Positions 9,560 to 46,252 of a stretch of DNA of 64,000 bases are shown piece by piece. Each line of letters begins with the position of its first letter. Within the stretch, counting starts at the first letter, position 1. A program made the position numbers and the translations under genes. Origin of the DNA: Paenibacillus massiliensis subsp. panacisoli DSM 21345 (GTDB taxonomy: Bacteria > Bacillota > Bacilli > Paenibacillales > Paenibacillaceae); the NCBI RefSeq assembly GCF_000426545.1, contig NZ_AUFO01000011.1, positions 1-64,000 on the forward strand, in the 5' to 3' direction. The notes under the pieces were generated by a model. The model was not told the origin of the DNA and searched no databases. It was given only the letters and a program-made list of their open reading frames with translations.

Positions 9560-9616
9560 GATTGAGTGCATTTTACTTTGAGGAAGAAAGTGAGGATCGT
9601 AAGGTATAACCACTTA

Positions 9617-9832
9617 AGCGCCAGAGCTTGCTCATGCGCGGGGAACATGTTGATACAGCTTCTAGGGAGCTTATTTGCATGGACGGCTGCTGCAAGCTGA
9701 CGAGGTGGGGGTGTTCGAAATATTCGGCGGGGACCTCCCGGTTGTATCACCAGACCGTGAACCGATGCTTGGAAAATGGATGGGTGACTGTCCACACAAC
9801 AAGCCGGTTGGTGAACCATAATATACTTGAAC
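9617..9832 (+). ncRNA. glmS ribozyme (GlcN6P-activated)
   Basis: Self-cleaving leader that shuts down glmS when glucosamine-6-phosphate is abundant. The cleavage-site strand AAGCGCCAGAGC starts here; cleavage is expected between 9617 and 9618. The conserved core is clear: GCTGACGAGG, GTTCGAAATATTCGGCGGG, CCTCCCGG, CAGACCGTGAACCG, and the P4 region ending GGATGGGTGACTGTCC. Compared with the B. subtilis RNA as I remember it, the segment before GCTGACGAGG is longer. The exact 3' end is uncertain. Confidence 0.93.
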
Positions 9833-10035
9833 AGTTCATTTCATGGATGTACAGCATCAGAAGAAGGTATGCGGTACAGTAGAAATGCGTAGCATTCGTG
9901 AAGCCTGTTGTTTTAGTGATGCGTAATTGTATGTCTCATATAGGATAACTTCATAATTGTACACATTTCGGCATGTACCGCATGCGTTTCCTTCTGTTGT
10001 CCTGTCAGATGAAATGACGAACGGAGGAAACGAAC

Positions 10036-25755: not shown

Positions 25756-25764
25756 TTTATACCA

Positions 25765-25805
25765 GGAATCCTCTGCCCGTTGATAGGTGCAGGGGGTTCT
25801 TATTT
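25765..25805 (+). terminator. terminator after GntR gene
   Basis: GAATCCTCTGC pairs with GCAGGGGGTTC through two G-U pairs, followed by TTATTTTA. Confidence 0.75.
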
Positions 25806-25834
25806 TATGTGACAATTATTATAGCAAACAACAG

Positions 25835-25863
25835 TTGACATTTAAAAAGTATGCTATTATACT
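25835..25863 (+). promoter_or_regulatory. sigma-A promoter of the transporter-transketolase operon
   Basis: TTGACA (25835-25840), 17-base spacer, TATACT (25858-25863). Close to consensus. The operator-like palindrome starts just after the predicted transcript start. Confidence 0.8.
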
Positions 25864-25871
25864 CAAGTCAC

Positions 25872-25903
25872 AAGTTCACTTGGTATACAAGTTATCAAGT
25901 GAA
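25872..25903. promoter_or_regulatory. probable GntR operator
   Basis: AGTTCACTTG and CAAGTGAAC form an inverted repeat around TTGGTATACAA (25880-25890), itself a near-palindrome of the kind bound by FadR-type GntR proteins. The right half ATACAAGTTATCAAG recurs nearly unchanged upstream of the transketolase gene. Its place just after the start of transcription would block elongation or initiation. Confidence 0.65.
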
Positions 25904-25998
25904 CCAATTTTTCAGGAGGTGTTGGAAGCGCTTAATTACATGATTGAATATGTCCATTCAGGAAATACTTTCATGAGTAGCTATTTTTGTTTATCGTG

Positions 25999-26014
25999 TT
26001 GAAAGCGTTTTAAG
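25999..26014 (+). promoter_or_regulatory. weak cre-like site in the transporter leader
   Basis: TTGAAAGCGTTTTAAG fits the cre consensus except the CA near its end. A second partial match (TTGGAAGCGCTTAATT) lies at about 25922. Suggests catabolite repression; unproven. Confidence 0.4.
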
Positions 26015-26057
26015 ATCTTGGCGTGAAGCAGTGCATCATCTTTTGGGAGGATTTCAT

Positions 26058-27398: not shown

Positions 27399-27481
27399 CA
27401 GAGTTGCTGCGCAACGAAGACTATTAACAAAACGGGTATATACGCCATTCACAAATACTCGTTTTTTATTTACAATAACTT

Positions 27482-27499
27482 AGGATACAAGTTAACAAG
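27482..27499. promoter_or_regulatory. second GntR-operator-like half site
   Basis: AGGATACAAGTTAACAAG, 14 of 16 bases shared with ATACAAGTTATCAAG at 25885-25899 and its flank. It sits 56 bp before the transketolase start, in a 156-bp gap, so this part of the operon may have its own regulated promoter. Confidence 0.5.
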
Positions 27500-27554
27500 A
27501 TCATAAGATAACAAAAGGCTATGGAGATTAAAAATTCATATTGAGGTGAGCCAA

Positions 27555-28388
27555 ATGACAAACATCAGCGTCCATGAGCTTGAACAGAAAGCCGCTGAGC
27601 TTAGACAGACAGCTCTAACAATGATTTATGAAGCACAATCAGGACATCCTGGCGGGTCGCTGTCTGCTGCTGATTTTGTAACAGCCCTTTATTTCAGAGA
27701 AATGAATATCGATCCGGAGAATCCGAAATGGGAAGATCGTGACCGTTTTGTACTCTCCAAAGGACATGTTTGTCCAATTCAATACGCTGCACTGGCACAT
27801 CGAGGATACGTTCCCATGGAGACCATTCATACACTCCGGCAATACGGATCTCCATTTCAAGGCCATCCTGATATGAAAAAGTGCCCTGGCATTGACATTT
27901 CAACAGGCTCGCTCGGTCAAGGTCTGTCCTGTGCTGTAGGCATGGCTTTAGCAGGCAAACGGGACAACAAGGACTATCGGGTATTTGCCATCCTGGGCGA
28001 TGGAGAATGTCAGGAAGGACAAATATGGGAGGCCGCTCAAACCGCGAATAAGTATCAGCTGGATAATCTGATCGTCTTTGTCGACGACAACAATCTGCAG
28101 ATTGACGGTACATGTGATGAAATTATGCCAAATCTGGATCTGGAGCTTAAGTTCAAGGCCTTCGGCTTTGAAACGAGACGCATCGACGGTCATGACATGC
28201 AGCAGATTGTGGATACGTTGGATGAGGTGCGTGAGCTGAAGAACAAGCCTATCTGCATCGTGTGCAATACGATTAAGGGCAAGGGTGTATCGTTCATGGA
28301 AGATGTGTGTGGCTGGCACGGAGTTGCGCCCAAGGAAGCAGAGTATTTGCAGGCACTAGAAGAAATTGCGGGAGGTCTGAAAAAATGA
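27555..28388 (+). CDS. transketolase, N-terminal (TPP-binding) subunit
   Basis: Half of a split transketolase, 277 residues, carrying the pyrophosphate and Mg part of the thiamine diphosphate site: SGHPGGSLSAADF, the catalytic SKGHVCP, and the TPP motif ILGDGECQEGQIWEA ending in DDNNLQIDG. ATG at 27555 follows GAGGTGA; the GTG at 27546 lies within the SD. It overlaps its partner's start by four bases (ATGA), typical of subunits made one-to-one. Split transketolases of this kind often serve special sugar pathways (apulose-4-phosphate or sulfofructose cleavage are described cases) rather than the core pentose pathway. Confidence 0.9.
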   Translation: MTNISVHELEQKAAELRQTALTMIYEAQSGHPGGSLSAADFVTALYFREMNIDPENPKWEDRDRFVLSKGHVCPIQYAALAHRGYVPMETIHTLRQYGSPFQGHPDMKKCPGIDISTGSLGQGLSCAVGMALAGKRDNKDYRVFAILGDGECQEGQIWEAAQTANKYQLDNLIVFVDDNNLQIDGTCDEIMPNLDLELKFKAFGFETRRIDGHDMQQIVDTLDEVRELKNKPICIVCNTIKGKGVSFMEDVCGWHGVAPKEAEYLQALEEIAGGLKK

Positions 28389-29344
28389 GTGTACAAGAGA
28401 ATACAGCAGTAGTGAAGAAAATTGCAACTCGTGAAGCCTTCGGTCATGAAATTGTGGAGCTGGGTAAGAGCAATAAAAATATATACGTCGTGGATATTGA
28501 TATCGGCAAGTCCTGTAAGACTACGGAGTTCGCCAAGCAGCTCCCGGACCAACATGTTAATGTGGGCATCGCCGAGCAGAATGCGGCTGGCCTGTCCGCA
28601 GGTCTCGCCACTACCGGCAAAATTCCCTTCATTAGTACCTATGCGGTGTTTGGCTCGCTTCGTATGGCAGAACAGATTCGCCAAGAAGTCTGCTATCCTA
28701 ACCTGAATGTGAAAATTGCATGCTCGCATGGAGGGCTGACACCTGCGAATGATGGAGGCAGTCATCAGGCTATTGAGGATATGGGCGTGCTGCGTACTAT
28801 TCCTAATATGACGGTTATTATGGGCTCCGATTATTACTCTACCCGTAAGCTGGTGGCTCAAGCAGCAGAGCATTACGGCCCAGTCTATCTTCGTTTCACT
28901 CGCGATGCAATTCCTGTAATCTACGACGAGAATGAGGAATTCCAGATCGGTAAGGCCAAGAAGCTGAAGCAAGGCAAGGATCTGGCCATCATCGCCAATG
29001 GGGACACCGTCTATCTGGCCATACAAGCAGCCGAGCAATTGGAGCAGGAGGGCATCTTCGTTACCTTGCTCGATATGCATACGTTGAAGCCGCTGGATCG
29101 GGAAGCTGTCGTGGAGTGTCTGAGCACCGGACACATCATTACCGTTGAGGATCATAACATTCTCAATGGCCTCGGGAGTGCTGTCAGCGAGGTAGTAGCC
29201 GAGGAAGGTGGAGCAGTTCTTCGCAGAATCGGAATCCAGGATAAATTTGGTGAGTCGGCACCTTACGAACAACTGCTGAAGCTTAATGGAATTACAATTG
29301 AAAACATCGTTAATACAGCACGTACCATGCTCAAACGCAACTAA
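28385..29344 (+). CDS. transketolase, C-terminal subunit
   Basis: Partner of the preceding subunit, 319 residues. The pyrimidine-binding domain (NVGIAEQNAAGLSAGLATTGKIPFI, with the conserved Glu that activates TPP) is followed by the transketolase C-terminal domain (about residues 185-310, GKDLAIIANGDTVYLAIQA). Translationally coupled to the N-subunit. The complex would move a two-carbon unit from a ketose donor; which ketose is unknown. There is no kinase in the operon, so the phosphorylated partner must come from central metabolism or the donor is unphosphorylated. Confidence 0.9.
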   Translation: MSVQENTAVVKKIATREAFGHEIVELGKSNKNIYVVDIDIGKSCKTTEFAKQLPDQHVNVGIAEQNAAGLSAGLATTGKIPFISTYAVFGSLRMAEQIRQEVCYPNLNVKIACSHGGLTPANDGGSHQAIEDMGVLRTIPNMTVIMGSDYYSTRKLVAQAAEHYGPVYLRFTRDAIPVIYDENEEFQIGKAKKLKQGKDLAIIANGDTVYLAIQAAEQLEQEGIFVTLLDMHTLKPLDREAVVECLSTGHIITVEDHNILNGLGSAVSEVVAEEGGAVLRRIGIQDKFGESAPYEQLLKLNGITIENIVNTARTMLKRN

Positions 29345-29378
29345 CTATATATAAATCAATCAAAGGAGTGTTTAAACC

Positions 29379-30137
29379 ATGTTTGAACTAACCAATCGCG
29401 TAGCCATTGTAACGGGAAGTGGCTCCAAAAGAGGAATCGGACGCACGATTGCACTGACTTTAGCCAAGCAAGGAGCGAAGGTATGCATCGCTGATATCAA
29501 TCAGGAAGGTATTCAGGAGACGGTGGATGCTATTAAGGCAGCAGGTGGAGAAGCAATCGGGGTCGAACTGAATGTGACGAGCGAAGAGTCTACAAAGGCT
29601 ATGGTGGCACAGGTCCTTGAGGCGTATGGAAGCATAGACATCCTGGTCAACAATGCTGGCATATCTCAAAAGGCAACCGTTGCAGAGATGACGCTTGAGG
29701 ATGTGACACGGGTATTTAACGTCAACATGTTCGGACTGTTCCTGTGCACGCAGGCTGTACTTGAGCCTATGAAGAAGCAGGGATATGGTCGAATCGTCAA
29801 TCTCTCTTCAGTCTCTGCGAAGCGTGGTGGGGGCGTATTCGGAGGTGCACATTATTCTGCATCCAAGGCGGCTGTATTGGGCTTCTCCAAGAATCTGGCG
29901 CGTGAAGTGGCAGCGGACGGGATCACCGTTAACTCCGTTGCGCCTGGTCTGGTGAATACGGATATCTGGAAGTCGCTCGATAAAGAGGTGGCTGATGGTG
30001 TTATTGCAGGCATCCCGATGGGACGTCCTGGTGAGACGGAGGAGATTGCCGCAGCTATCGCATTTCTGGCCTCTGAGGAATCCTCGTATATTACTGGCGA
30101 AGAGATTGACATCAATGGTGGTTCGCACATGGATTAA
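29379..30137 (+). CDS. SDR family NAD(P)-dependent oxidoreductase
   Basis: Complete classical short-chain dehydrogenase of 252 residues: cofactor loop TGSGSKRGIGR (residues 12-22), NNAG near 90, catalytic Ser in VNLSSVSAKRGG and the YxxxK pair in HYSASKAAV. C-terminal motif GEEIDINGGSHMD. SD AAAGGAG precedes the ATG. Last gene of the operon; it probably oxidises a polyol or sugar acid to the ketose used by the split transketolase. Confidence 0.9.
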   Translation: MFELTNRVAIVTGSGSKRGIGRTIALTLAKQGAKVCIADINQEGIQETVDAIKAAGGEAIGVELNVTSEESTKAMVAQVLEAYGSIDILVNNAGISQKATVAEMTLEDVTRVFNVNMFGLFLCTQAVLEPMKKQGYGRIVNLSSVSAKRGGGVFGGAHYSASKAAVLGFSKNLAREVAADGITVNSVAPGLVNTDIWKSLDKEVADGVIAGIPMGRPGETEEIAAAIAFLASEESSYITGEEIDINGGSHMD

Positions 30138-34346: not shown

Positions 34347-34625
34347 ATGCAGAGCCAAGTAATCCGCATGATTAGTGAAGTGAAGGAAGACCACGAACTC
34401 CCCGGGAAGCTGGATGGCACCTCGGATATTATTCATGACGCAGGTCTGGACTCCCTGCAGCTGGTGCATTTTATGCTGAAGATTGAAGATGAATTTGACG
34501 TGGAAGTCGATTTTGACAATTTTGAACTGGAATACTTAAGCTCCATTGATGCTTTCTGCGATTATATCCGGCAAATGAAGGAACACTCTGGATTGACGGA
34601 GACAACGGAAATCGGGACAATATGA
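34347..34625 (+). CDS. acyl/peptidyl carrier protein 1 (biosynthetic cluster)
   Basis: Stand-alone 92-residue carrier protein. The phosphopantetheine attachment motif is GLDSLQL with Ser36, in the expected position at the start of helix 2. Strongly acidic helix 2/3 (KIEDEFDVEVDFDNFELEYL). The start at 34347 is set by AAGGAGGAGGAATTGAA; the longer open frame (from 34215) covers the promoter. First gene of the cluster, followed directly by the radical SAM gene. In the butirosin pathway a similar free carrier (BtrI) holds the growing side chain. No phosphopantetheinyl transferase is in the cluster, so a host enzyme must activate it. Confidence 0.88.
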   Translation: MQSQVIRMISEVKEDHELPGKLDGTSDIIHDAGLDSLQLVHFMLKIEDEFDVEVDFDNFELEYLSSIDAFCDYIRQMKEHSGLTETTEIGTI

Positions 34626-34674: not shown

Positions 34675-35868
34675 ATGCAGCCGAAAAGCCATGTATTGAT
34701 TGACGAAAAGGCGTTCAAGCTGATTAAAAGAAATTTAAAAAATGCTTCGGTTTCCTACCGTAACTCCGTCAAGGACCCAGCCTTCAGAACGGACATGCCC
34801 CATACTATTGGCATCAAGCTGACCAACCGCTGTAATCTCCGCTGTACTCACTGCTTTGAATGGAACGAGGAAGGCTACCACCATCAGATGGACAAGGAAG
34901 AACAGAATATGGATTTGGACCCTGCGTTGCTCAGACAAATTTTACAGGAGACACAGGAGGTCAAATCCCGTTTGTATATGTGGGGTGGGGAACCGATGTT
35001 CCACCGCCGTTTTGATGAAATTTTGGACGTGCTGGCCGAGGACCGACGGGAGATGACGTTCTGCACAAATGGTCTGCTAATCGACAAGCATCTCGACCGA
35101 ATCCTGGAATTGTCCGACAATCTGGAGCTGCTGATCGCCGTTGAAGGCTTCGAGCGCGAGCATGATCTGATCCGCGGCAAAGGCACCTTCAAAAAAACGA
35201 TGGCACAGATGCAGCGGCTGATCGAGCTTCGTGATCAAGGCTTGTATAAAGGTAGAGTAACCGTGCATGCAGTCATTAATGACAACATGATCGGACGTAT
35301 GTTCGAATTCCTCGAAATGTTCGAGACCATGAAGCTGGATCTCGTTCTGCTTACATTCCCATGGTATATCTCCAAAGAAACCTCACTCAAAATGGACGAC
35401 TATTTTTCCCGCAACTTCTCCTGGCTACGCGAGCTTGAAGAAAACAATATCAGCAGTTGGCATGCCTTTAAGTACAAAATCAATCCGGACCATATCGATC
35501 CCCTCATGCAGGAGCTCCGTCGTATCAATGAGCGCGTATGGAATATCCGGGTTCGTTATCAGCCAGGTCTCGACTTCGAGGAGATCGACAAATTCATTCA
35601 TGGCGAGGAATTGGTCAGTCGCTGCTCCTCGCGCTGTCTTGCCCTGAATTCACGCACAGACATTTTGCCTGATGGAAAAGTCATGCCCTGCAAGTTTTTC
35701 AGCGAGTTCACAATCGGAAGCCTACAGGAGAACACGCTGAAGGAAATCTGGGAATCCGACAAATATGAAATGACCCGCTCTATCATCAACGAAAAGGGGC
35801 TGACTCCTGTATGCTCCAAATGCAGCGTGCTTTATCTTCATGGGGCCGGTTCACTGAAATATATTTGA
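34675..35868 (+). CDS. radical SAM/SPASM domain enzyme (biosynthetic cluster)
   Basis: 397-residue radical S-adenosylmethionine enzyme. The [4Fe-4S] motif CNLRCTHC places ligands at Cys53, Cys57 and Cys60. The SAM-binding GGEP-type motif is MWGGEPMFH near 100-110. The C-terminal SPASM-like region supplies further cysteines (CSSRC, DGKVMPCKFF, then CSKC near 386). SPASM enzymes oxidise or cross-link peptides or carrier-bound amino acids. No peptide precursor is visible, so a carrier-bound or free small substrate is likelier. It lies 49 bp after carrier protein 1. The exact reaction cannot be read from sequence. Confidence 0.88.
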   Translation: MQPKSHVLIDEKAFKLIKRNLKNASVSYRNSVKDPAFRTDMPHTIGIKLTNRCNLRCTHCFEWNEEGYHHQMDKEEQNMDLDPALLRQILQETQEVKSRLYMWGGEPMFHRRFDEILDVLAEDRREMTFCTNGLLIDKHLDRILELSDNLELLIAVEGFEREHDLIRGKGTFKKTMAQMQRLIELRDQGLYKGRVTVHAVINDNMIGRMFEFLEMFETMKLDLVLLTFPWYISKETSLKMDDYFSRNFSWLRELEENNISSWHAFKYKINPDHIDPLMQELRRINERVWNIRVRYQPGLDFEEIDKFIHGEELVSRCSSRCLALNSRTDILPDGKVMPCKFFSEFTIGSLQENTLKEIWESDKYEMTRSIINEKGLTPVCSKCSVLYLHGAGSLKYI

Positions 35869-35914
35869 GCAGCAGCCGAACAAGTAGAGCAGCTTTTAAA
35901 AGGAGATGCACAAG

Positions 35915-37285
35915 ATGGATCTTGCTTTGGATGTGAATTGGCTGACGGCGCTCTCCACAGACCGCGATCAGCATGTGTTCGTGTGGCTGTTCAATATTGG
36001 CGCTGAGGAAGTATGGCATCCCGGCTCACGGGCCGTTGCTGACCCGGCAGAGCAGATTGTCGTGAACCGGATGGAGGAAATGAATCTGCTGCTTTGTCGC
36101 AGCCAGGATATTATCGTGCTGAGAGAGCAGCCACAGCCTCATTTTCTGGAAATGCTGCAGCACATAGGATTCAACATTCCCCGGATCGAGGTGCCGAGGC
36201 CTTCTGACCCGCTGACGCCCATTACCGAGCTGGTGCTTGCTGATGAGGAGCTGCTGCAGCGGCTGCGAATCATATCAGAAGAAGCGGGTGGCGCTTATCT
36301 CGTGCCATATGCTGTTACGTGGAAGGAGGAGGAGGTTGCAGAACGCAGCTCCCTGACCTTGCTCGGAGCGGATGCGGAGCTGTGTGCTCGTGTGAATGAT
36401 AAGATTTTCAGCCGCCGTCTGGCCGAGCATCTCGGCTTTCCGGTGACTGAAGGGGCCGTGTGCAGGAATGAAACGGAGGTCCAGGAAGCGTGCGACCGCA
36501 TTGCGGCAGCAGCGACAGGTCCCGTCCGTTTTATTATCAAGCAGCCGCACGGAGCCTCCGGCAAAGGCATGTTTCTTGTTGAGGATCTGTCCCGGCTGAA
36601 TACCATTCTTAATGTAATGAAGCGCTTTGCCGGTCGCAATTCCCTTGCAGGTGGCTGGCTGGTGGAACGGTGGTATGGGAAACAGCTGGATTTTAATTAT
36701 CAGATTTATATTAGCCCTGGAGGCGAAGTGACCATGTTCTCGCTAAAAGTGCAGCAGCTTGCCGGAACCGTATATACCGGCTCCCGTATGCCTGCGGAGC
36801 TGGGGAAGGGGCTGGAGGAGCAGGTCCTCAGCTATGCTGAACAGCTCGGTTCCTCCTTGTGTGCTGCCGGTTATTTCGGGATAGCATCCATTGACGGTTT
36901 TGTGGATGAGGACGGCCTGCTCTTTCCGGTCATCGAAATTAACGGCAGGTTTACACTATCGACCTATATTTCGTTTGTATCCGCTGTGCTTGGAGAACGT
37001 AAGTTTTTGTCCCGCTATTACCGGGTTGTCTCTGACGAGCCGCTAACGTATGAATCTTTGTGCGCACTGCTTCTGAAGAATCGGCTGCTGTACGGGCCTG
37101 AGCACCGGGAAGGGGTAATGGTGTATACCGCCGGCACCCTTTCTCCAGCCCGTCTGAAACAGGGATTCATCAACCGTATTTTTGCTCTGATCGTCACGGA
37201 CAGCTGGGAGGGGGCTGAGGACTACGCACGCCGGCTGGAGCAGTTGTTCGCCGCTGGGCAGCAAGTTCAAGCCATTAACTCATGA
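35915..37285 (+). CDS. ATP-grasp ligase 1 (PGM1-like; biosynthetic cluster)
   Basis: 456-residue ATP-grasp enzyme with an N-terminal pre-ATP-grasp domain. ATP-binding lysine and glycine loop FIIKQPHGASGKGMFLV are near 205-222, the second basic/acidic stretch is WLVERWYGKQLDFNYQIY, and the Mg-binding block is VIEINGRFTLSTY near 345. This is the PGM1/butirosin-BtrJ kind of layout, which forms acyl-phosphates and then amides or thioesters with a carrier. ATG 35915 is nine bases from AGGAG; the ATG at 35906 lies on the SD. Likely job: loading an amino acid on a carrier protein, or forming a peptide bond. Confidence 0.83.
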   Translation: MDLALDVNWLTALSTDRDQHVFVWLFNIGAEEVWHPGSRAVADPAEQIVVNRMEEMNLLLCRSQDIIVLREQPQPHFLEMLQHIGFNIPRIEVPRPSDPLTPITELVLADEELLQRLRIISEEAGGAYLVPYAVTWKEEEVAERSSLTLLGADAELCARVNDKIFSRRLAEHLGFPVTEGAVCRNETEVQEACDRIAAAATGPVRFIIKQPHGASGKGMFLVEDLSRLNTILNVMKRFAGRNSLAGGWLVERWYGKQLDFNYQIYISPGGEVTMFSLKVQQLAGTVYTGSRMPAELGKGLEEQVLSYAEQLGSSLCAAGYFGIASIDGFVDEDGLLFPVIEINGRFTLSTYISFVSAVLGERKFLSRYYRVVSDEPLTYESLCALLLKNRLLYGPEHREGVMVYTAGTLSPARLKQGFINRIFALIVTDSWEGAEDYARRLEQLFAAGQQVQAINS

Positions 37286-37368: not shown

Positions 37369-37614
37369 ATGGAGACAGGTGTAAGTATCGTGCTGCCTTT
37401 GCTGGAAAGAGTGCTGAAGCTGTCTGAGGGCGAGCTGGCGGGAATGGAAGCGGATCGGGATTTACGGAGCTTGGGATTGAATTCACTGTCCGCCATTGAA
37501 TTGATTGTGGAGCTGGAGAACGAGCTCAACATTGTAATCGATGACGATGATCTGCTGTTGGACAAACTGTCCACGCTAAGCGAGATTGAAGAGCTGCTGG
37601 GCAAATATGTATAA
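37369..37614 (+). CDS. acyl/peptidyl carrier protein 2 (biosynthetic cluster)
   Basis: 81-residue carrier protein. Ser39 in LGLNSLSAIEL is the attachment site; Asn replaces the usual Asp before it. Acidic C-terminal half (DDDDLLLDKLSTLSEIEELL). SD GGAGGAG precedes the ATG. Its last codons overlap the start of the BtrH-like gene, which suggests that this carrier is the donor for that acyltransferase. Confidence 0.88.
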   Translation: METGVSIVLPLLERVLKLSEGELAGMEADRDLRSLGLNSLSAIELIVELENELNIVIDDDDLLLDKLSTLSEIEELLGKYV

Positions 37615-38629
37615 AGCCGGGATAGGTTCACATAGGCAATCCGTGTCTGGAACAGACCGGGTAGGCAAGCATTGCCTGTATTCTTCCCTGTGCGGGTTGC
37701 TACTGCGCCGAGGTATTGCAGCTGCCGAGGCTGATTTGTTCCTGCTAGCGGGTAGCATGAACGCGGAATATGAGGGGGAGCTGCGTCCATTTGGTCCGGG
37801 AACCTTCGGGAACCAGCTGCGCAGAATCACGGCTTCCGGAGGTCCTGACCTCCGGGTTGAAGCCTGGGACCCGCAGGACCGCGATCCGCACAAGCTGTTG
37901 AAGGCTCTACCTGATGGGTACAGCGCGATGCTGCACGTATCCAGCGCAGCCCTGACGTATCACCAGATTTATGTTATCAACCGTGCACGCGGACATGTGA
38001 TCGAGCTGCATAGCCTGGATGAAGAATCACGGACTGCCCATGTATCGGACAGCTTTCTGCTGGACTCATCAGGCCAAGCATTCCAATACACGGGCGAAGC
38101 CCGTCTGGACGATCTGCTGGGTGGAGTGCTGGATTATGCGTGGCTGGCGGGGGCGCCAGTCGAGCCTTCACCGGCAAGGATATACCAAGCGTGCGCCCTG
38201 CATATTCGGGATTATCTATCAAGTTGGAGCGACGTGCCTCAGTTCCGAAAAGGGGATGCAGCCTATCGCGCCTTTATAGCAGATTTTCAGCTGCTGTCCG
38301 ATCTGAACGATCAGGAGTTTCGGTACCAATGTGCAGAGATTTATTATCAGCTGCGAATCGGCACCGCGCTCACTCTGGCGGATTATCTCCACGATTTTGC
38401 CATGCTCCATCAGGATACGCTGGGGGCTGGGGCGGGTTTCATTGCCGACGGGGCCACAGAGCTCTACGCCGGCTGGCACCGCCTGAATTTGCAAATTTAC
38501 AAGACAGGCCTGCAGCTTGGCAGGCATCGTGTACAGACACTGATCAGCCGTGCGAATGAGCTAGTTGACCAGCAATACAGGCTGCTTGAACAGCTCCTGC
38601 CACTTGTGGAAGAGGCTAGACAACAGTAG
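37607..38629 (+). CDS. BtrH-like acyltransferase (biosynthetic cluster)
   Basis: 340 residues from ATG 37607, overlapping the carrier gene by eight bases. The N-terminal ~150 residues match the BtrH_N type: GKHCLYSSLCGLLLRRG, with candidate nucleophile Cys23, then EADLFLLAGSM, and the later His/Asp-containing VSSAALTYHQIYVINR and ELHSLDEES. In butirosin synthesis BtrH takes the gamma-glutamyl-AHBA chain from its carrier and attaches it to ribostamycin. By analogy this enzyme should move an acyl group from carrier 2 to an amine or hydroxyl. The C-terminal helical half is of unknown role. Confidence 0.78.
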   Translation: MYKAGIGSHRQSVSGTDRVGKHCLYSSLCGLLLRRGIAAAEADLFLLAGSMNAEYEGELRPFGPGTFGNQLRRITASGGPDLRVEAWDPQDRDPHKLLKALPDGYSAMLHVSSAALTYHQIYVINRARGHVIELHSLDEESRTAHVSDSFLLDSSGQAFQYTGEARLDDLLGGVLDYAWLAGAPVEPSPARIYQACALHIRDYLSSWSDVPQFRKGDAAYRAFIADFQLLSDLNDQEFRYQCAEIYYQLRIGTALTLADYLHDFAMLHQDTLGAGAGFIADGATELYAGWHRLNLQIYKTGLQLGRHRVQTLISRANELVDQQYRLLEQLLPLVEEARQQ

Positions 38630-38642
38630 GGAGGGAATCGTT

Positions 38643-39635
38643 TTGCCGGTTATTACACTGAATCGATTGTCGAAAACATTTACGTACTACAAAAAAGAAC
38701 CGGGTGTGCGGAAATCGCTGCAAAACCTGTTCCACAGGGAGAAGCTGGCCAAGGAAGCCGTTAAGGAGATCAGCTTTTCCGTCAGGGAAGGTGAAATGGT
38801 CGGTTTTCTCGGGCCGAACGGGGCGGGCAAAACGACAACTCTGAAAATGCTGTCAGGCATTCTGCATCCGAGCAGTGGTGAAGCTTCCGTACTGGGATTT
38901 ACGCCTTGGAAACGGCAGAAGGAATTCAAGCGACAGTTCTCCATCGTCATGGGCCAAAAAAACCAGCTGTGGTGGGATTTGCCTGCAAGCGAATCCTTTG
39001 CGCTGAATAAGTTGATTTACGAAATCGGCGACCATGAATTCCGCTCTTCATTGGACGAACTAGTCACGCTGCTTGGTGTGGAGGAGCAGTTGCATGTGCA
39101 GGTGCGGCGTCTGTCGCTTGGAGAGCGCATGAAAATGGAGCTGATTGCCGCGCTGCTGCATCGGCCGAAGGTGATTTTGCTGGATGAGCCGACCATCGGT
39201 CTGGATATGGTATCCCAGCGCAGGATTCGGGAATTCTTCAAGGCATATAACCGCCAGCACCGAACGACGGTGCTGCTGACCAGTCATTACATGAAGGACA
39301 TCGAGGATTTATGCTCACGGGTAATGATCATCAGTGGCGGGAGCCTTGTATATGACGGAGATCTGAAGAGCATCAACGAGCGGCTGGGGGCCCGTAAGCT
39401 GCTTAAAGTCAGACTGACCGAGCCCGTAGCCCCGAAGCAGCTCGCGGGACTGGGAAGTGTCCGATCAAGCAGCCAGCTGGAGGTTGTTTTTGAGGTCGAT
39501 GCGGAAGACACACTCGGATGGTCGAAAAAGGTGCTTGATGCGTTGCCTGTTACAGATTTTACGATTGAGGATGTCCCGCTGGAGGAAGGCATTGAAAATT
39601 TGTACAACGAAGGCAGATGGGCCGATGCGAAATAA
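38643..39635 (+). CDS. ABC exporter ATP-binding protein (biosynthetic cluster)
   Basis: ATPase of an ABC-2 type exporter, 330 residues. Walker A GPNGAGKTTT at residues 57-66, signature LSLGERMKMEL, Walker B VILLDEPTIGLD, H-loop LLTSHY. A TTG at 38643 with GGGAGGG eight bases upstream is the best start; the frame continues 26 codons upstream inside the BtrH-like gene. The next two genes encode its membrane halves with overlapping or abutting ends. Probably exports the cluster product. Confidence 0.92.
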   Translation: MPVITLNRLSKTFTYYKKEPGVRKSLQNLFHREKLAKEAVKEISFSVREGEMVGFLGPNGAGKTTTLKMLSGILHPSSGEASVLGFTPWKRQKEFKRQFSIVMGQKNQLWWDLPASESFALNKLIYEIGDHEFRSSLDELVTLLGVEEQLHVQVRRLSLGERMKMELIAALLHRPKVILLDEPTIGLDMVSQRRIREFFKAYNRQHRTTVLLTSHYMKDIEDLCSRVMIISGGSLVYDGDLKSINERLGARKLLKVRLTEPVAPKQLAGLGSVRSSSQLEVVFEVDAEDTLGWSKKVLDALPVTDFTIEDVPLEEGIENLYNEGRWADAK

Positions 39636-40446
39636 TCCGCTTGAACATAACAAGTATGTCAAAGTGTTTTTACTTGGCATGCAGAATGAGATGGAGTACA
39701 GGACGAACTATTGGCTGCAGCTATTTTCGTTCATTTTGCCGTTGATGACGCAAATTTTTCTCTGGCTTGCTGTCTTTGGCTCTTCGGGTGAACGGCAGCT
39801 GCTCGGCTACACCCTGGAGGAAATGCTCGTGTACGCCGTAATGGCAGCAGTTACCGGCAGGCTGATTGCAGCCGGTTTTGAATACGAGATTGCGGAGGAT
39901 ATCAAGGAGGGAGGGCTTGGCAAATTTCTTGTACAGCCCGTGCACTATTTTGCCTACCGTCTTTTTCGGTTTGTCGGGGCCAAGGCTGTGCAGAGCGCTG
40001 TTATCTGGACAGGTGCTGTCTGTATGCTGGTCGGGCTCAGTCTGTGGGGCGGCGGCAGCTTTTCAATCACTCATCTTTTGCTGTATATGCTGACCCTTCC
40101 CGGAGCGCTGCTGCTAAACTTCCTCATCTATTATACGCTTAGCGGCATGGCTTTCTGGATTACGGAATCCGTGGGATTGTTCTATACCTTGTCCCTCGTC
40201 ATCTACGTTGTGAGCGGAACCGTCTTCCCGTTGACGATTTTTGGGGAGGCGGTGGGAAAGCTACTGAGCATGCTGCCGTTTGCCTATACGGTGTTTTTTC
40301 CCGTCAATGCGGTAACAGGTAAACTGAGCGGCTCCCTCATAGCAGCAGGCATCGGCCTGCAGGCCTTCTGGATTGCCGTACTCCTGATTCTGTCGGGGAT
40401 TGTCTGGCGTGCGGGTGTCAGACGCTTCGTAGCGGTGGGAGGATAA
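39625..40446 (+). CDS. ABC-2 type permease, subunit A (biosynthetic cluster)
   Basis: 273-residue membrane protein with six predicted helices (for example LFSFILPLMTQIFLWLAVFG at about 32-51). Cytoplasmic motif DIKEGGLGKFLVQPVHYFAYRLFR, typical of the DUF990 permease family (VGTLDRLLTRPV-like loop). Its ATG at 39625 overlaps the ATPase stop. Confidence 0.88.
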   Translation: MRNNPLEHNKYVKVFLLGMQNEMEYRTNYWLQLFSFILPLMTQIFLWLAVFGSSGERQLLGYTLEEMLVYAVMAAVTGRLIAAGFEYEIAEDIKEGGLGKFLVQPVHYFAYRLFRFVGAKAVQSAVIWTGAVCMLVGLSLWGGGSFSITHLLLYMLTLPGALLLNFLIYYTLSGMAFWITESVGLFYTLSLVIYVVSGTVFPLTIFGEAVGKLLSMLPFAYTVFFPVNAVTGKLSGSLIAAGIGLQAFWIAVLLILSGIVWRAGVRRFVAVGG

Positions 40447-40447
40447 C

Positions 40448-41260
40448 ATGAAAAAACTGCTGCGGACGTGTGTCCGCTATGTCAGGTTGTACATGCGGTT
40501 CGTCAAATTTTCCGTCATATCGCAGATGGAGTATCGGATTAATTTTATTACTGCATTTCTGGTGGAGACGGCTTACCTGCTGATCAAGCTGCTCTATGCC
40601 TCGGTCCCTTACCGGACAGGCACGGACATCAACGGATGGTCCCCGGATGCAGTGCTCCTGTATATCGGAGTGTTCACGATTATGAGTGGCCTGTACAGCG
40701 GGCTTTTTTATAGCAATTTTACCGGGCTGCCGACCAAAATCCGCACAGGCTCGCTGGATATGCTGATGACCCAGCCGGTCTCCCTGCAGTTCATTGTCAC
40801 CCTGCGACAGTTCAATCTGGGCTATACCATCCCGAATGTTGTTGGAGGTGGCATTATGGCAGGCGTCGGCTGGCATCGTCTGCAACTGCCGTTCACCTGG
40901 GAGGCAATTAGCGGCTTTTCCCTGCTGCTGGCAGTCGGTGTGCTCACCGCTTATTCGGTCTTCCTGTTACCGCAAATGCTCGGTTTCTGGACCATCCGTA
41001 CGAACGGGGTGACGGAATTATCAAACAGCCTGTTCGACACGAATACCGTGCCGATGTCAGTATACAGCAAGCTCATTCAGAGAATCGGCATTTTTGTACT
41101 GCCCATATTCGTCATCTGCAATTTTCCGCCCATGTTTGTACTGGGCATGATGAATGGCAGCCTGCTGCTGTGGGCTGTATTGGTCCCGATTTGGCTCCTG
41201 CTGATTGTGCGGCTGGTCTGGCAGTTCGCGCTGCGCGGCTATACAAGCGCAAGTCAATGA
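40448..41260 (+). CDS. ABC-2 type permease, subunit B (biosynthetic cluster)
   Basis: 270 residues, paralogue of the preceding permease: same loop (KIRTGSLDMLMTQPVSLQF) and six hydrophobic helices. Starts one base after the previous stop. The pair would form a heterodimeric channel with two copies of the ATPase. Confidence 0.88.
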   Translation: MKKLLRTCVRYVRLYMRFVKFSVISQMEYRINFITAFLVETAYLLIKLLYASVPYRTGTDINGWSPDAVLLYIGVFTIMSGLYSGLFYSNFTGLPTKIRTGSLDMLMTQPVSLQFIVTLRQFNLGYTIPNVVGGGIMAGVGWHRLQLPFTWEAISGFSLLLAVGVLTAYSVFLLPQMLGFWTIRTNGVTELSNSLFDTNTVPMSVYSKLIQRIGIFVLPIFVICNFPPMFVLGMMNGSLLLWAVLVPIWLLLIVRLVWQFALRGYTSASQ

Positions 41261-41307: not shown

Positions 41308-42708
41308 ATGACACCGGATGTACCTGCACTGAAGCGCATATATATGGGAACGTTTGAGGCGGAAGCTTATTGGAAAGATCCAGATACAGCGTCCCTGCCC
41401 ACTCTGCCGGATCGGTCTGGTGCGGCGATTGTCGCCGCCATGGATGAGCTGCTGTTCTGCTTCTGTGGGCAGGAGGATGTGCTGCTTACCCGTTACGCCA
41501 TGTCCCCTGTACACTGGCAGTATATATCTGGATTTGGCTTCAGGCCTGCTGTCAATGCGCATGATCTGTCCTGTTTCCGTGATGAAACCGTTGTGCTAGG
41601 CTCATCTGCTTCCGTCTTCGAGCTGCTGTGCCAGCGCCGGGAAGACGGTATGCCGGGGTTGCCGGATGTACAGGGTGGCCTGCTCGCCCCGTTTGCCTAC
41701 CTTCCTTACACGGAGGAGGCGGCAAAAGCGTGGGGTATCCGCCTTCACCAGCCGCCTCTTGAGACGGTCCGCAAAGTAAACGCTAAGACTTACTCCTCCA
41801 GGTTGAAAGAGCGCTTTGGACTGAGCAATCCCGGCCAGATCGTCACGAGTGCCGATGAATTGGAGCAGGAAGGGCGAACGCTGTTAATGGAAGGCACTTT
41901 TCTGGTAAAGGATGATTTTGGCGTATCCGGCAAGGGCAATCTGCATATCACTTCACTACAAATGCTGGAACGGATCGTGGCGTATCTGAGGCAGCAGGAG
42001 CGGAAGGGGAAGAGAGTATGCTTCATATTGGAGCCTTTTCTGGAGAAGGAGCAGGATTTTTCCTGCCAATTTGTTGTGTCCGAAGCAGGTGAGGTGGAGA
42101 TTGTATCCGTGCAGCTGCTGGCCAATTCAAGCTTTTCCTACAGAGAGTCGCTGCTGCCTGATGCAGGATTTATGGAGATGCTGGAGGATAAGGGTTATTT
42201 TTCGTTCATGAAGGCGATTGGCAGACAGCTGTGGGCGGACGGTTACTTCGGGGATGTGTGTGTCGATTCCATGACGCTCAGAGACGGAAGCCTTGAAGAA
42301 ATTGTAGAGATTAATGCGCGGCGCTCCATGAGCCTGATCAAGCACCAACTTGATGTGTGCCTGACGGAGCGCTCGCTGCTTGGCAGCATGACCAATTATA
42401 CGCTGTCCCATCAGGGGGCGCTATCGTACGAGGCTCTGCTGGACAAGCTGGAGCAGGCGAAGCTGTTGTTCACGGACAGCCGTGAAGAGGGCGTGATGCC
42501 GCTGTCGGCCAATACGCTGTATGTGAATACAGGGGGGAGGGATACGCCCAATCCTGCCAAGGGTATGAATGGAAGCACAGACACGGGACGAAAAGGAAAA
42601 GGGCGGCTCTACCTGGCGATGATTGCCGAGAATCAGGACAGAAAGGCACAATTGACTCAGCGGCTGGAGCATTTTTTGGCTGATAATCAGTTTGCTGTAT
42701 TAAATTAG
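41308..42708 (+). CDS. ATP-grasp ligase 2 (biosynthetic cluster)
   Basis: 466-residue second ATP-grasp enzyme, only distantly like the first. Glycine loop FLVKDDFGVSGKGNLHI near 197-213, acidic block FILEPFLEKEQDFSCQF, and the Mg-binding EIVEINARRSMSLIK near 345. The C-terminus has a Gly/Lys-rich linker (PAKGMNGSTDTGRKGKG). SD GGGGGGAAGAG precedes the ATG. Two ligases and two carriers suggest two separate loading or condensing steps. Confidence 0.83.
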   Translation: MTPDVPALKRIYMGTFEAEAYWKDPDTASLPTLPDRSGAAIVAAMDELLFCFCGQEDVLLTRYAMSPVHWQYISGFGFRPAVNAHDLSCFRDETVVLGSSASVFELLCQRREDGMPGLPDVQGGLLAPFAYLPYTEEAAKAWGIRLHQPPLETVRKVNAKTYSSRLKERFGLSNPGQIVTSADELEQEGRTLLMEGTFLVKDDFGVSGKGNLHITSLQMLERIVAYLRQQERKGKRVCFILEPFLEKEQDFSCQFVVSEAGEVEIVSVQLLANSSFSYRESLLPDAGFMEMLEDKGYFSFMKAIGRQLWADGYFGDVCVDSMTLRDGSLEEIVEINARRSMSLIKHQLDVCLTERSLLGSMTNYTLSHQGALSYEALLDKLEQAKLLFTDSREEGVMPLSANTLYVNTGGRDTPNPAKGMNGSTDTGRKGKGRLYLAMIAENQDRKAQLTQRLEHFLADNQFAVLN

Positions 42709-42760: not shown

Positions 42761-43900
42761 ATGAAGGTTACGATATTATGCTCCGGTTTCGGGTTGGGAT
42801 TCTACACGCCCGGATTGCTGATTGAAGCAGGACTGAGCAGACTTGGCATGGGTACGGCCGTTCATGTATTCGAGAATGTGCTGCCAGAATCGGCGCGTAC
42901 CAAGGTGGACCAGAATCGTAAAGCCTATCATGACAACTTCAAGATCGCACTGATGTCACAAAAAATCCCGCAAGATATGAGCGAGTCCATTGATCCGGAA
43001 GCTTTGGAGCAGCTTCTGTCCTTATGGTGCGAGGAGGATCGACGCCATTTTATTTGCCTGTCAGGCCACTGGATGTACGTTCTGGAGGAATACCGGTCCC
43101 GGCGGGGCGAGGTTCCTATGCACATTGAGCTGCTGTACATGGATTCTACGCCATCCCCTTCCTGGAAAAATTTAATGCGCCACCGGCCGCAAATTGCTGA
43201 AGGCTGCGGTCAGCTTACTCTGTTTGACCATGCCACAGGCAGCATAAACTGCTATATCGATGTGTCTGTTCCCCTTGTACCCTACAGGGAACGGGAGCAT
43301 CGGCTGTTCATTCATGGCGGTGGCTGGGGTATGGGCACCTATCGCGACAAGCTGGACGAGCTGGAAGCGGCCGGCTATGGGCTTGATATGATGCTGTATA
43401 ACGATGACACTCCTGACGCACAGGCCGGTAGCCGCAAATATTACCGGATGGATCCGCAATGGCGGACATGGCAGACAGGAGCGGACGGTAGACATAGCTT
43501 CCCTCCGTTTGCCGAGGTCCACTCTGGCGAAGAAGTCCTGTACCGCAATGAGCAGGAATATCACCTGTTGTATGTGCGGCAGCGTCAGATGAAGGCCATT
43601 GTCAGCAAGCCAGGAGGGGGAACCATGACGGATTCCTTTGCATCCGCGACACCACTGATCATGCTGGAGCCTTTCGGTGCGCATGAGAAAGACAATGCAG
43701 ATCTGTGGGAGAAGCTTGGATTCGGCATCCGCTACGAGCGCTGGGTCTCAGAATACGGAGGCGGTGCGGATATTCTGGAGAAGATGCATACAGCCATACT
43801 GGAAACGAAAGAGCGGACCCCGGAATGCTCGCGGCTGCTGGCTCAGCGCCTTGGCCTGTACTCTGCGCAGACCGTTCCCGTCCTGGAGGAGGGGAGCTGA
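42761..43900 (+). CDS. putative GT-B fold glycosyltransferase (biosynthetic cluster)
   Basis: 379 residues, weak similarity only. The N-terminus ILCSGFGLGFYTPGLLIEAGLSRLG looks like the first strand-loop of GT-B enzymes. The stretch IVSKPGGGTMTDSFASATPLIML near 282-304, followed by EKDNADLWEKLGFG, matches the nucleotide-sugar binding part of MurG/UgtP-like transferases. Cytosolic, no membrane segment. SD GGGAGGAAGGG precedes the ATG, and it overlaps the next gene by one base. If correct, the product carries a sugar, or the BtrH-type acceptor is a sugar. Alternative: a catalytically altered GT-B relative. Confidence 0.6.
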   Translation: MKVTILCSGFGLGFYTPGLLIEAGLSRLGMGTAVHVFENVLPESARTKVDQNRKAYHDNFKIALMSQKIPQDMSESIDPEALEQLLSLWCEEDRRHFICLSGHWMYVLEEYRSRRGEVPMHIELLYMDSTPSPSWKNLMRHRPQIAEGCGQLTLFDHATGSINCYIDVSVPLVPYREREHRLFIHGGGWGMGTYRDKLDELEAAGYGLDMMLYNDDTPDAQAGSRKYYRMDPQWRTWQTGADGRHSFPPFAEVHSGEEVLYRNEQEYHLLYVRQRQMKAIVSKPGGGTMTDSFASATPLIMLEPFGAHEKDNADLWEKLGFGIRYERWVSEYGGGADILEKMHTAILETKERTPECSRLLAQRLGLYSAQTVPVLEEGS

Positions 43901-44934
43901 TGAATGCTGCCGCAGAAGCATGGGTGCCGCCTTCCCCGGCTGAAGAGCCCGTCCGGTTCGGCGTCATTGGCTGCTCGTCCATCGTGCCGCGTGCGTTGCT
44001 TGAGCCTGCCCGCTATGTGGAGCATTCGGCTATTGTGGCCGTTGCGAACCGGACTGCCGCAAAAGCCGAGTTGATGGCTGAACAGTACGGTATCCGCACG
44101 GTGCACCGGACCCCTGCAGAGTTATTAAACGACAGTGAGGTCGATGCCGTATATATTGCACTTAGTAACGATCTGCATGCGGAATGGATTGCAAGGGCGC
44201 TGAGCGCAGGCAAGCACGTACTGGTCGAAAAGCCGCTATGCCTGCACACAGATGAACTGGACCTGATCGAGTCGGCCCTGCGGGCAGGTGGGCCATACCT
44301 GCTAGAAGGGGTCATGGTCAGGCATCATCCCTGGCAGGACAAGCTCCGTACTATGGTAAGCGACCGTAGCTTCGGCAGGCTACGCTCGGTAGAGACCAGT
44401 CTGTGCATCCCGGCCAAAAACGGGCATAAAGACAACTACCGCAGCCGTCCGGAGCAGGGAGGGGGCTGTTTCAGAGATCTGGGTGTGTACTGGCTGCAGT
44501 TTTTGCAGACGCTGGTTGGATTGGAGGGGGCCAGCTTTCAAGGACAATCCTCCTTCGACGGGCCGGGCGGCTGTGACTGGAGCTTTCAGGCGCAGGCGGA
44601 GTACCCGGACGGCTTGAGGGCGACGGCCCTATGCTCATTCGAGCGACCTTACCGCTGCTCCCACACCCTGACCTTCGACGATGCGGTCGTTTCGCTGAAT
44701 GACTGCTTCCGTGCGAATCTTGGGTTTTATAAAATGACGCTGCGTATTCGCCGGTCCGGTGAGCTGTCCGCCAAAGCCGAATTCGGGCCCATGAATTATT
44801 ATGTGAATCAGCTCGATTACTTTTGCCGGATGGTCCATGGGACAGCTGTTCCTGTTCCTTTCGGGGAATCGGCAGAACGGATCAGGCTGCTGGATTCCAT
44901 TTACCAATCGGCCCGCCAGAGCAGGGTGAAGTGA
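43900..44934 (+). CDS. Gfo/Idh/MocA family oxidoreductase (biosynthetic cluster)
   Basis: 344-residue NAD(P)-dependent sugar or inositol-type dehydrogenase. N-terminal Rossmann domain: VRFGVIGCSSIVPRAL near 18-33, then AVANRTAAKAELMAEQYG; catalytic Lys in VLVEKPLCLH (EKP motif); C-terminal domain with GGCFRDLGVYWLQ. ATG 43900 overlaps the preceding stop and has GGAGGAGGGGAG in front; the frame open further upstream is only overlap. Family members oxidise or reduce sugar carbinols, so it may tailor the sugar or cyclitol part of the product. Confidence 0.87.
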   Translation: MNAAAEAWVPPSPAEEPVRFGVIGCSSIVPRALLEPARYVEHSAIVAVANRTAAKAELMAEQYGIRTVHRTPAELLNDSEVDAVYIALSNDLHAEWIARALSAGKHVLVEKPLCLHTDELDLIESALRAGGPYLLEGVMVRHHPWQDKLRTMVSDRSFGRLRSVETSLCIPAKNGHKDNYRSRPEQGGGCFRDLGVYWLQFLQTLVGLEGASFQGQSSFDGPGGCDWSFQAQAEYPDGLRATALCSFERPYRCSHTLTFDDAVVSLNDCFRANLGFYKMTLRIRRSGELSAKAEFGPMNYYVNQLDYFCRMVHGTAVPVPFGESAERIRLLDSIYQSARQSRVK

Positions 44935-44947
44935 AGGAGAGGATTTC

Positions 44948-46252
44948 GTGAATCTAGCCGATGATCAACTGTTGTCCGTAACACGGAGCCACAGGACCCC
45001 GTTTTTTCTATATGACGGAGATGCCTTGTACTCCCATGTACGGAGTATACTCGCCCGTCTGCATCCTTCAGTCAAACTGCATTATGCGCTGAAGGCAAAC
45101 GGAAATGTCAGCATCGCTGCTCTGCTCTGCTCCCTTGGCTGCGGGGCGGAGATTGCATCGTCAGGAGAGCTATATACAGCTCTTACAGCAGGCTATGAGC
45201 CGAAGGATATCATTTTTGCCGGACCGGGGAAAACGGAATCCGAGCTGAATGAAGCTGCTGAGACAGGAATCGGATGCGTCAATGTTGAATCGGTCCGCGA
45301 GCTGCGGCTGCTGGAAAAAGTGGCGGCACGAAGCGGTGTCCATGTGCGGGCAGCCGTCCGCATTAATCCTGACGCGGATGTATCCGGGGCGACGATAAAA
45401 ATGGGTGGGGCAGCCCGCCCGTTTGGTGTGGATGAATCCCAACTGGACGTTTTCTTTGCAGCTTTGCAGGAATGTAGTCATATTCAATTTCAGGGCATCC
45501 AGATCTACACAGGCACTCAGATGCTGAAAGCGGAGGAGATTATTGGATCGTTTGCGAATACCGTCAGACTTGCCGGGGAGATTGGTGGGAAATACGGTTT
45601 GCCTATTCATAGCATTAATCTGGGCGGCGGCTTTGGCATTCCTTATTTTCCTCATGAACAATCGCTTGATATGGATCAAGTGCTCCAGTATCTCAACGGA
45701 TTGGCGGCAGAGGCGGTGCAGCGTATGCCAGGCGTCCGTCTGATTATTGAGAGTGGCAGGTACCTGGTCGCCTGTTCCGGAATGTATGTGACAAAGGTAC
45801 TGTATACCAAAACATCCAAAGGAGAAAAGTTTGCCGTCACGGATGGAGGCATGAACCATTACGCTTCCGCAGCTTTCCGGGGACGCAGGCTGCGCGATAA
45901 TTTTCCGGTAAAGGTCTTCAGCGCAGACAAGCAGCAGCCGGACGTGGATAAAGCCGGAGAGGCCAGGCAGGAGGAGGAGGAAATCACCGTCGTTGGCCCC
46001 CTCTGTACTCCCGAGGATTGTCTTGTTCGGAAAGCGAAGCTGCCACTCATCAGGGAGGACGACTACATTGTGATGCCTAATGCGGGCGCGTACGGACTCA
46101 GCTATAGCCCTGTTGATTTTCTGGGTCATCCATCTCCAACAGAGCTACTTGCAGCCGGTGGGCAGGTATATGTGATCCGAGAACCTGGTAATGCGAAGGA
46201 TGCTATGCGTCATCAGCGTCTGATCGTGCCGAATACGCTCCAGCAGATCTAG
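44948..46252 (+). CDS. PLP-dependent decarboxylase, BtrK/LysA fold (biosynthetic cluster)
   Basis: 434-residue fold-type III decarboxylase with GTG start (SD GAAGGAGAGG). Lys49 in HYALKAN binds PLP. Glycine-rich phosphate loop NLGGGFGIPYF, the IESGRYLVA block, GPLCTPEDCL with the active-site Cys from the partner subunit, and NAGAYGLSYSP are all present. General family: diaminopimelate/ornithine decarboxylases. In this context it resembles BtrK, which decarboxylates glutamate while it is bound to the carrier BtrI. It is very unlikely to be the housekeeping lysA, given its place as last gene of the cluster. Substrate unknown. Confidence 0.85.
   Translation: MNLADDQLLSVTRSHRTPFFLYDGDALYSHVRSILARLHPSVKLHYALKANGNVSIAALLCSLGCGAEIASSGELYTALTAGYEPKDIIFAGPGKTESELNEAAETGIGCVNVESVRELRLLEKVAARSGVHVRAAVRINPDADVSGATIKMGGAARPFGVDESQLDVFFAALQECSHIQFQGIQIYTGTQMLKAEEIIGSFANTVRLAGEIGGKYGLPIHSINLGGGFGIPYFPHEQSLDMDQVLQYLNGLAAEAVQRMPGVRLIIESGRYLVACSGMYVTKVLYTKTSKGEKFAVTDGGMNHYASAAFRGRRLRDNFPVKVFSADKQQPDVDKAGEARQEEEEITVVGPLCTPEDCLVRKAKLPLIREDDYIVMPNAGAYGLSYSPVDFLGHPSPTELLAAGGQVYVIREPGNAKDAMRHQRLIVPNTLQQI

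Follow-up and report, generated by a model that had tools for sequence, protein, structure and literature searches.

A carrier protein gene and an overlapping BtrH-family gene in a conserved twelve-gene block of Paenibacillus: a putative acyl-transfer pair

Two overlapping genes of Paenibacillus massiliensis subsp. panacisoli DSM 21345, encoding the carrier protein ACP2 and a BtrH_N-family protein (hereafter BtrH), may together carry out an acyl-transfer step. We propose, with a probability of roughly 0.55, that the papain-family BtrH takes an aminoacyl group, decarboxylated on ACP2, and passes it to an acceptor that a core set of neighboring genes would make. The pair was found in a 64-kb stretch of DNA (the window) and lies in a block of 12 genes on one strand, separated by gaps of -11 to 83 bases, in the order ACP1, radical SAM/SPASM enzyme (rSAM), ATP-grasp1, ACP2, BtrH, three ABC transporter genes, ATP-grasp2, glycosyltransferase (GT), Gfo/Idh/MocA oxidoreductase (Gfo) and decarboxylase (Table 1). 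By sequence, this block appears to join a butirosin-like side-chain module to a glycosyltransferase/radical-SAM core. A literature search, with subscription journals, MIBiG and antiSMASH outside its scope, did not find a description of it.

Table 1. Genes of the twelve-gene block and the overlap within it (window positions)
Feature	Coordinates	Strand	Details
ACP1, second carrier protein	34347..34625	+	DSL; 92 aa
Radical SAM/SPASM enzyme (rSAM)	34675..35868	+	397 aa
ATP-grasp1	35906..37285	+	PreAtp-grasp, ATP-grasp, PGM1_C; 459 aa
ACP2, carrier protein	37369..37614	+	ATG to TAA; 81 aa; Ser39 in LNSLS; PP-binding E 4.4e-12
BtrH_N-family gene (BtrH)	37607..38629	+	ATG to TAG; 340 aa
ACP2/BtrH overlap	37607..37614	+	8 bases, ATG-TA-TAA; BtrH start inside ACP2 end; no Shine-Dalgarno sequence
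ABC transporter ATPase	38643..39635	+	330 aa; TTG start
ABC2_membrane_6 permease (ABC permease 1)	39625..40446	+	start position set manually using the translated sequence
ABC2_membrane_6 permease (ABC permease 2)	40448..41260	+	270 aa
ATP-grasp2	41308..42708	+	diverged ATP-grasp1 paralog, 24-27% identity; 466 aa; under Pfam cut-offs on its own
GT-B (GT28-like) glycosyltransferase (GT)	42761..43900	+	379 aa; matched in its C-terminal nucleotide-sugar region alone
Gfo/Idh/MocA oxidoreductase	43900..44934	+	344 aa
PLP decarboxylase	44948..46252	+	GTG start; 434 aa; nearest solved relative BtrK

An initial annotation of the window had noted that the two genes share eight bases and had taken them to be probably co-translated. 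The shared bases are where it placed them, as are Cys23 in GKHCLYSSL of BtrH and Ser39 and the NSL motif of ACP2; the PP-binding match with its attachment residue Ser39 places ACP2, by sequence, among the phosphopantetheine carriers. The overlap has the form ATG-NN-TAA in all 14 blocks of the genus (the window and 13 same-genus relatives) and the same form at 9481-9488 of a block from another genus (L045), and because it is kept throughout it exceeds what chance would give. NSL is likewise retained in 14/14 blocks and in L045. A mechanical list of open reading frames offered a TTG at 37586 as an alternative BtrH start, which would lengthen the overlap to 29 bases; all 14 loci retain the ATG at 37607 as a start, and further in-frame starts vary. 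This ATG holds a constant place in the end of ACP2 (14/14), the sequence of the N-terminal tail of BtrH differs, and the protein ranges from 340 to 376 aa across the window and its 13 same-genus relatives. The ABC ATPase gene and that of the first permease share bases too, 11 of them (39625-39635) if the permease starts at 39625.

To examine the starts themselves, we computed pairing with the 16S rRNA tail upstream of 7 of the 12 gene starts, dropping orthologs that lacked a match from residue 1 or a start codon there. The BtrH start pairs at a median of -2.7 kcal/mol (n=14, range -3.4 to -1.5), against a median of -3.5 kcal/mol for 300 random 19-mers of the block. The other six medians were -11.2 kcal/mol for ACP1 (n=13), -9.8 for rSAM (n=13), -11.3 for ACP2 (n=14), -13.1 for the ABC ATPase (n=12), -11.5 for ABC permease 2 (n=13) and -6.8 for GT (n=9, weakest -3.0). 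Among the seven starts, BtrH alone lacks a Shine-Dalgarno sequence throughout (14/14). Since the overlap is kept and the BtrH start has no Shine-Dalgarno sequence of its own, translational coupling is likely: BtrH is probably translated by ribosomes leaving ACP2, in line with the initial annotation.

We then asked how widely the block occurs. Of 99 genomes of relatives in which BtrH was sought, 15 gave a match: the window's own, 13 from the same genus (about 50-98% identical, among them P. massiliensis DSM 16942 [L019] at 98% and Paenibacillus sp. P96 [L020] at 72%) and G064 (24%). The 12-gene order is the same in 12 of the 13 same-genus relatives and in L045, from G398, which belongs to a different genus. 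When the window was compared with L020, in a set that leaves aside Gfo and the permeases, dN/dS was lowest for rSAM (0.04) and highest for BtrH (0.23). One relative, L023 (4985-12122), has ACP1, rSAM, ABC, ATP-grasp2, GT and Gfo genes that are shortened or fragmented and no match to ABC permease 2; its ATP-grasp1, ACP2, BtrH and decarboxylase genes seem whole, and the breakage may reflect decay or assembly. The ABC ATPase of L024 matches in two pieces, as do both permeases and ATP-grasp1 of L029, and these may be frame breaks. Upstream of the block, window positions 25012-30137 hold, as judged by eye, a GntR-type regulator, an MFS transporter, a split transketolase and an SDR gene, which look like a separate sugar pathway.

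The initial annotation had also assigned the protein to the BtrH family with Cys23 as candidate nucleophile, and this reading gained support. Pfam BtrH_N (PF14399) matches residues 22-148 of the window protein (E 1.2e-7; score 32.4 bits, cut-off 29.7), the sole BtrH_N match in its genome. The proteins of L045, L046, L047 and L032 also pass the cut-off, and the L021 ortholog falls below it (25.4 bits). In a profile alignment (hhalign) with three canonical BtrH_N-DUF4872 proteins, the N-terminal domain aligned with a probability of 94.6 (E 6.5e-8), and Cys23, His130 and Asp148 fell in register with their Cys16, His126 and Asp142, a correspondence of sequence only. These three residues are invariant in 9/9 aligned members and likely form the catalytic set. 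His119 was considered as a catalytic residue and set aside; it is kept in the 14 same-genus blocks but is Asn in L046 and L047. The C-terminal half of the window protein has no Pfam match, DUF4872 included (up to E 1), and DUF4872 was likewise absent from the proteins of L021, L032, L045, L046 and L047. Searches with the window protein gave no match in NCBIfam (E up to 0.1), among PDB sequences (E up to 10) or in a plasmid collection. A nine-member profile drew nine PDB matches, none credible (best E 0.27), and an AlphaFold model from three sequences was poor (mean pLDDT 41.2, pTM 0.35), as was that of GT (pLDDT 38.7), because the alignments held too few sequences (the window and two others). 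With neither a credible PDB relative nor a good model, it is family membership that argues for a papain fold in BtrH. BtrH is described as transferring acyl groups from ACP to aminoglycosides and as belonging, with its domain, to the papain-like superfamily (PMC10318531); its family is also listed with other candidate transacylases for the unloading of carriers (PMC2922099).

Across 398 genomes of the class, a ten-member BtrH profile matched in 10: the window's, G064, three g25 genomes (G398, G354 and G143) at E 8e-55 to 6e-68, and five others whose matches are weak, at E 4e-7 to 2e-4. A further weak match is present in G143. Those weak matches that we inspected (L048, L049 and L050) are standalone proteins, and the two that were scanned are BtrH_N-DUF4872 proteins. 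They have the BtrH_N domain and the Cys-His-Asp set in common with the block protein; L048 and L049 match BtrH_N at E 6e-41 and 3e-43 and DUF4872 at E 3e-46 and 1e-46, whereas in the block protein the BtrH_N match is weak and DUF4872 is absent. At L032 (3241-15217), in G064, a distant BtrH_N protein (24%) has as neighbors two genes each of the radical SAM and ABC exporter kinds, as well as two further proteins that are BtrH-like by eye. Proteins of 347-490 aa beside three blocks (L045:18319-19791, L075:1862-2917 and L077:5781-6824) have a motif like HEE..PW.Y..FIQL, with a weak BtrH_N match in L075 (E 0.0012); they are possibly inactive relatives, since no Cys stands at a constant place by eye.

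The decarboxylase relates the block to a known side-chain pathway. In butirosin biosynthesis BtrJ is the ATP-grasp ligase, BtrH acts on ribostamycin, BtrO is a flavin monooxygenase and BtrG, which we take to belong to the GGACT family (PF06094), is a gamma-glutamylcyclotransferase. Against solved structures, residues 1-423 of the 434 in the block decarboxylase match BtrK (PDB 2j66, 7ru7; 398 bits, E 7e-118), with the next match at 174 bits. According to PMC7857480, BtrK decarboxylates Glu-S-BtrI. The block thus has the BtrK-type decarboxylase with carrier and ATP-grasp that mark the butirosin side chain, and shares with BtrI/J/K/H a carrier, an ATP-grasp enzyme, a BtrK-like decarboxylase, a BtrH_N-family enzyme and, by extension, decarboxylation on the carrier; the likeness to BtrJ and BtrH is one of family rather than of direct sequence comparison. 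The butirosin BtrH and BtrJ sequences belong to record AB097196, which PMC11405602 names. A search for decarboxylase relatives (E up to 1e-75) gave 18 places in 17/398 genomes, 16 of them besides the window and G398. In each of the seven inspected loci of these 16, an ATP-grasp gene that matches ATP-grasp1 best lies within 5 kb, and an open reading frame resembling a carrier lies within 10 kb (two carriers confirmed by Pfam, the rest judged by sequence). ATP-grasp1, ACP2 and decarboxylase are all present in L045 and have no ortholog in the genomes of L046 and L047. We suggest that the three form a triad of the BtrI/BtrJ/BtrK kind, with a BtrI-like role for ACP2.

Beyond this triad the block departs from butirosin. 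It has two carriers and two ATP-grasp genes, a radical SAM/SPASM enzyme and a glycosyltransferase, and its BtrH has no DUF4872 match. No GGACT (PF06094) match was found in the window's own genome (a control search found the family in 9/14 genomes), and Pfam recognized no BtrO-type flavin monooxygenase among the 12 block proteins; therefore the block does not encode the whole butirosin side-chain route. Deprotection of the BtrG type by a GGACT-family protein is, as far as this search tells, absent from the genome. A scan of the same genome for the DHQ_synthase family did not find a 2-deoxy-scyllo-inosose synthase. The one gene above the cut-off is read as AroB (by inspection) because it directly follows an aroC-like gene, and a second, sub-threshold match reads by inspection as the glycerol-1-phosphate dehydrogenase type. 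With neither a 2-deoxy-scyllo-inosose synthase nor a BtrG-type gene, a home-made 2-deoxystreptamine (2-DOS) aminoglycoside acceptor is unlikely. The initial annotation had held that the acceptor would be new if not an aminoglycoside: a 2-DOS aminoglycoside is probably not the acceptor, which favors a new one.

What the acceptor may be is suggested by the other genes of the block. Relatives of rSAM (E up to 1e-60) occur in 11/398 genomes, four of which have the block or a reduced form; around six of the remaining seven we inspected 20 kb. The order is ACP1-ATP-grasp2-GT-rSAM-Gfo in G380 (L074) and ACP1-ATP-grasp2-GT-rSAM followed by three ABC genes in G038, G056 and G001. G022 and G026 have ATP-grasp2, GT, two rSAM and three ABC genes with methyltransferase genes (scanned in G022) and a different carrier farther off. 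A BtrH BLAST match to the window protein was absent from the 20 kb around all six loci; weak BtrH_N-like proteins lie near the one in G022. Because they occur together in loci without a BLAST-matching BtrH, ACP1, ATP-grasp2, GT and rSAM appear to be a separable core. Also in G064, L100 (7150-19847) brings together an ATP-grasp1 relative (48%), a BtrK-like decarboxylase and a GT relative (42%), along with a thymidylate-kinase-like gene, a gene with weak likeness to BtrH_N (E 0.017) and a carrier-like open reading frame, a third combination of the same parts.

Within the core, GT was not named by any Pfam model in a single-sequence scan. A profile of ten relatives matched a processive diacylglycerol beta-glucosyltransferase in the PDB (9wde) at E 2.6e-7, the alignment spanning profile positions 273-349 of 376, with the next glycosyltransferase matches at E 0.11-0.24; this match to a solved enzyme, in the C-terminal part, and motifs resembling KPGGGT and PFGxHExxN place the protein among the GT-B glycosyltransferases. 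The Gfo/Idh/MocA oxidoreductase probably acts on a sugar or cyclitol. A RiPP role for the radical SAM gene was considered and set aside: with gaps of at most 83 bases, the block leaves little room for a precursor gene. In kind, the parts of the core are those of early mitomycin biosynthesis (MitE ligase, MmcB carrier, MitB glycosyltransferase and MitD radical SAM enzyme), except that mitomycin uses a CoA ligase and the core an ATP-grasp; the likeness is one of parts and was drawn from descriptions, not sequence comparison. PMC8621148 has MitB glycosylating AHBA on MmcB and MitD proposed to form a C-C bond. By this precedent, the acceptor would be expected to be a glycosylated aminoacyl compound that is either built on ACP1 or released from it.

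The observed gene order, overlap, protein families, conserved residues and missing Shine-Dalgarno sequence frame the scheme that we favor, in which we infer the donor, amino acid, acceptor, product and every catalytic step. ATP-grasp1 would likely load an amino acid on ACP2, and the BtrK-like enzyme would decarboxylate it there, turning glutamate into a gamma-aminobutyryl group if it acts as BtrK does. In BtrH, Cys23 would accept the acyl group with activation by His130 and Asp148, and the enzyme would hand the group to an amine of the acceptor. The acceptor would be built by ACP1, ATP-grasp2, the GT-B glycosyltransferase, the radical SAM/SPASM enzyme and the Gfo/Idh/MocA oxidoreductase, and the product would leave through the ABC exporter.

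Two reduced blocks bear on the choice of donor. L046 (G354; 9358-10488) and L047 (G143; 9368-10522), from another genus, both read ACP1-rSAM-BtrH-ATP-grasp2-GT-Gfo, and the 20 kb around them contain neither ATP-grasp1 nor the decarboxylase, none of the three ABC genes and no full ACP2. Neither genome has a close copy of ATP-grasp1, ACP2 or decarboxylase elsewhere: the best ACP2 match scores 24.3 bits in G354 and 32.6 in G143, compared with 85.9 in G398, and the best decarboxylase matches are 26% and 34% identical. Both BtrH proteins are intact, with equivalents of Cys23, His130 and Asp148. They are 44-46% identical to each other with a dN/dS of about 0.24 (rough, at a dS near 2; dS for GT and ACP1 of this pair could not be computed), and are probably under constraint. 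A first reading of their open reading frames suggested a true ACP2-BtrH fusion, which we rejected after alignment; only the first part resembles ACP2, with no attachment Ser. When the L046 N-terminus was compared with ACP2, the score was reached by 0/2000 shuffles for the L045 protein, 40/2000 (marginal) for L021 and 533/2000 (no resemblance) for the window; the ACP1 controls gave 1477 and 1808/2000. For L047 the counts were 373/2000 (L045, not significant), 105/2000 (L021, marginal) and 1428/2000 (window, not significant), with controls of 364 and 233/2000. We suggest that the L046 N-terminus is likely, and that of L047 may be, an ACP2 remnant.

ACP2 and BtrH are thus joined in 15/17 blocks, with L046 and L047 as the exceptions; L032, the distant relative outside this block type, is likewise without ACP2. 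The dedicated donor-carrier/transferase pair seen in the initial annotation is therefore supported in part: it may hold in the 15, but the other two retain BtrH and no full ACP2. BtrH thus seems able to do without ACP2 in some blocks, and in L046 and L047, without ACP2, ATP-grasp1 and decarboxylase, it would need another donor. That donor could be ACP1, from which BtrH would release the glycosylated aminoacyl product of the core to a free amine, leaving ACP2 an accessory. Both reduced blocks fit this idea, as they keep ACP1, rSAM, BtrH, ATP-grasp2, GT and Gfo with no close ACP2 elsewhere in the genomes, and their BtrH has the Cys/His/Asp set and a dN/dS (about 0.24, rough) close to the 0.23 between the window and L020. 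We consider it rather unlikely, however: in the full blocks the overlap joins BtrH to ACP2, not ACP1, in 15/15, the core stands in G380 (L074) without a BLAST-detectable BtrH in the 20 kb around it, and the butirosin donor carrier accompanies the BtrK-type decarboxylase, which here is paired with ACP2.

The presence of two carriers and two ATP-grasp genes, with no NRPS domain recognized by Pfam among the 12 block proteins, would also suit a BtrH that joins two carrier-bound groups, moving the acyl group of ACP2 to the amine of an ACP1-bound aminoacyl group in place of an NRPS condensation domain. The blocks of L046 and L047 have one carrier only, and we regard such joining as improbable. We give still less weight to a role for BtrH in clearing carriers that were misloaded, as a hydrolase or a proofreading thioesterase using the same Cys-His-Asp set. 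The superfamily is described in PMC10318531 as papain-like cysteine peptidases, but the activity named there for BtrH is transfer, and the gene is kept with the pathway and probably co-translated with one carrier. Transfer from ACP2 remains the reading we prefer, with a glycosylated aminoacyl compound, built on ACP1 or released from it, as the presumed acceptor.

Together, these data set ACP2 and its putative acyltransferase BtrH within a conserved block of 12 genes whose acceptor is probably not a 2-DOS aminoglycoside. Gain and loss across blocks separates the butirosin-like side-chain module from the GT/radical-SAM core, which makes L046 and L047 a natural test of the donor carrier and renders donor, acceptor and carrier choice testable with few purified proteins. 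If BtrH did join two carrier-bound groups, the block would be an assembly line free of NRPS modules, with BtrH as a stand-alone condensation enzyme, one half supplied by ATP-grasp1, ACP2 and decarboxylase and the other by ATP-grasp2, ACP1, GT and rSAM, and what it makes would represent a new class of glycosylated aminoacyl compounds. An enzyme of the BtrH type that uses a new acceptor, if confirmed, would be useful for attaching aminoacyl side chains to other molecules.
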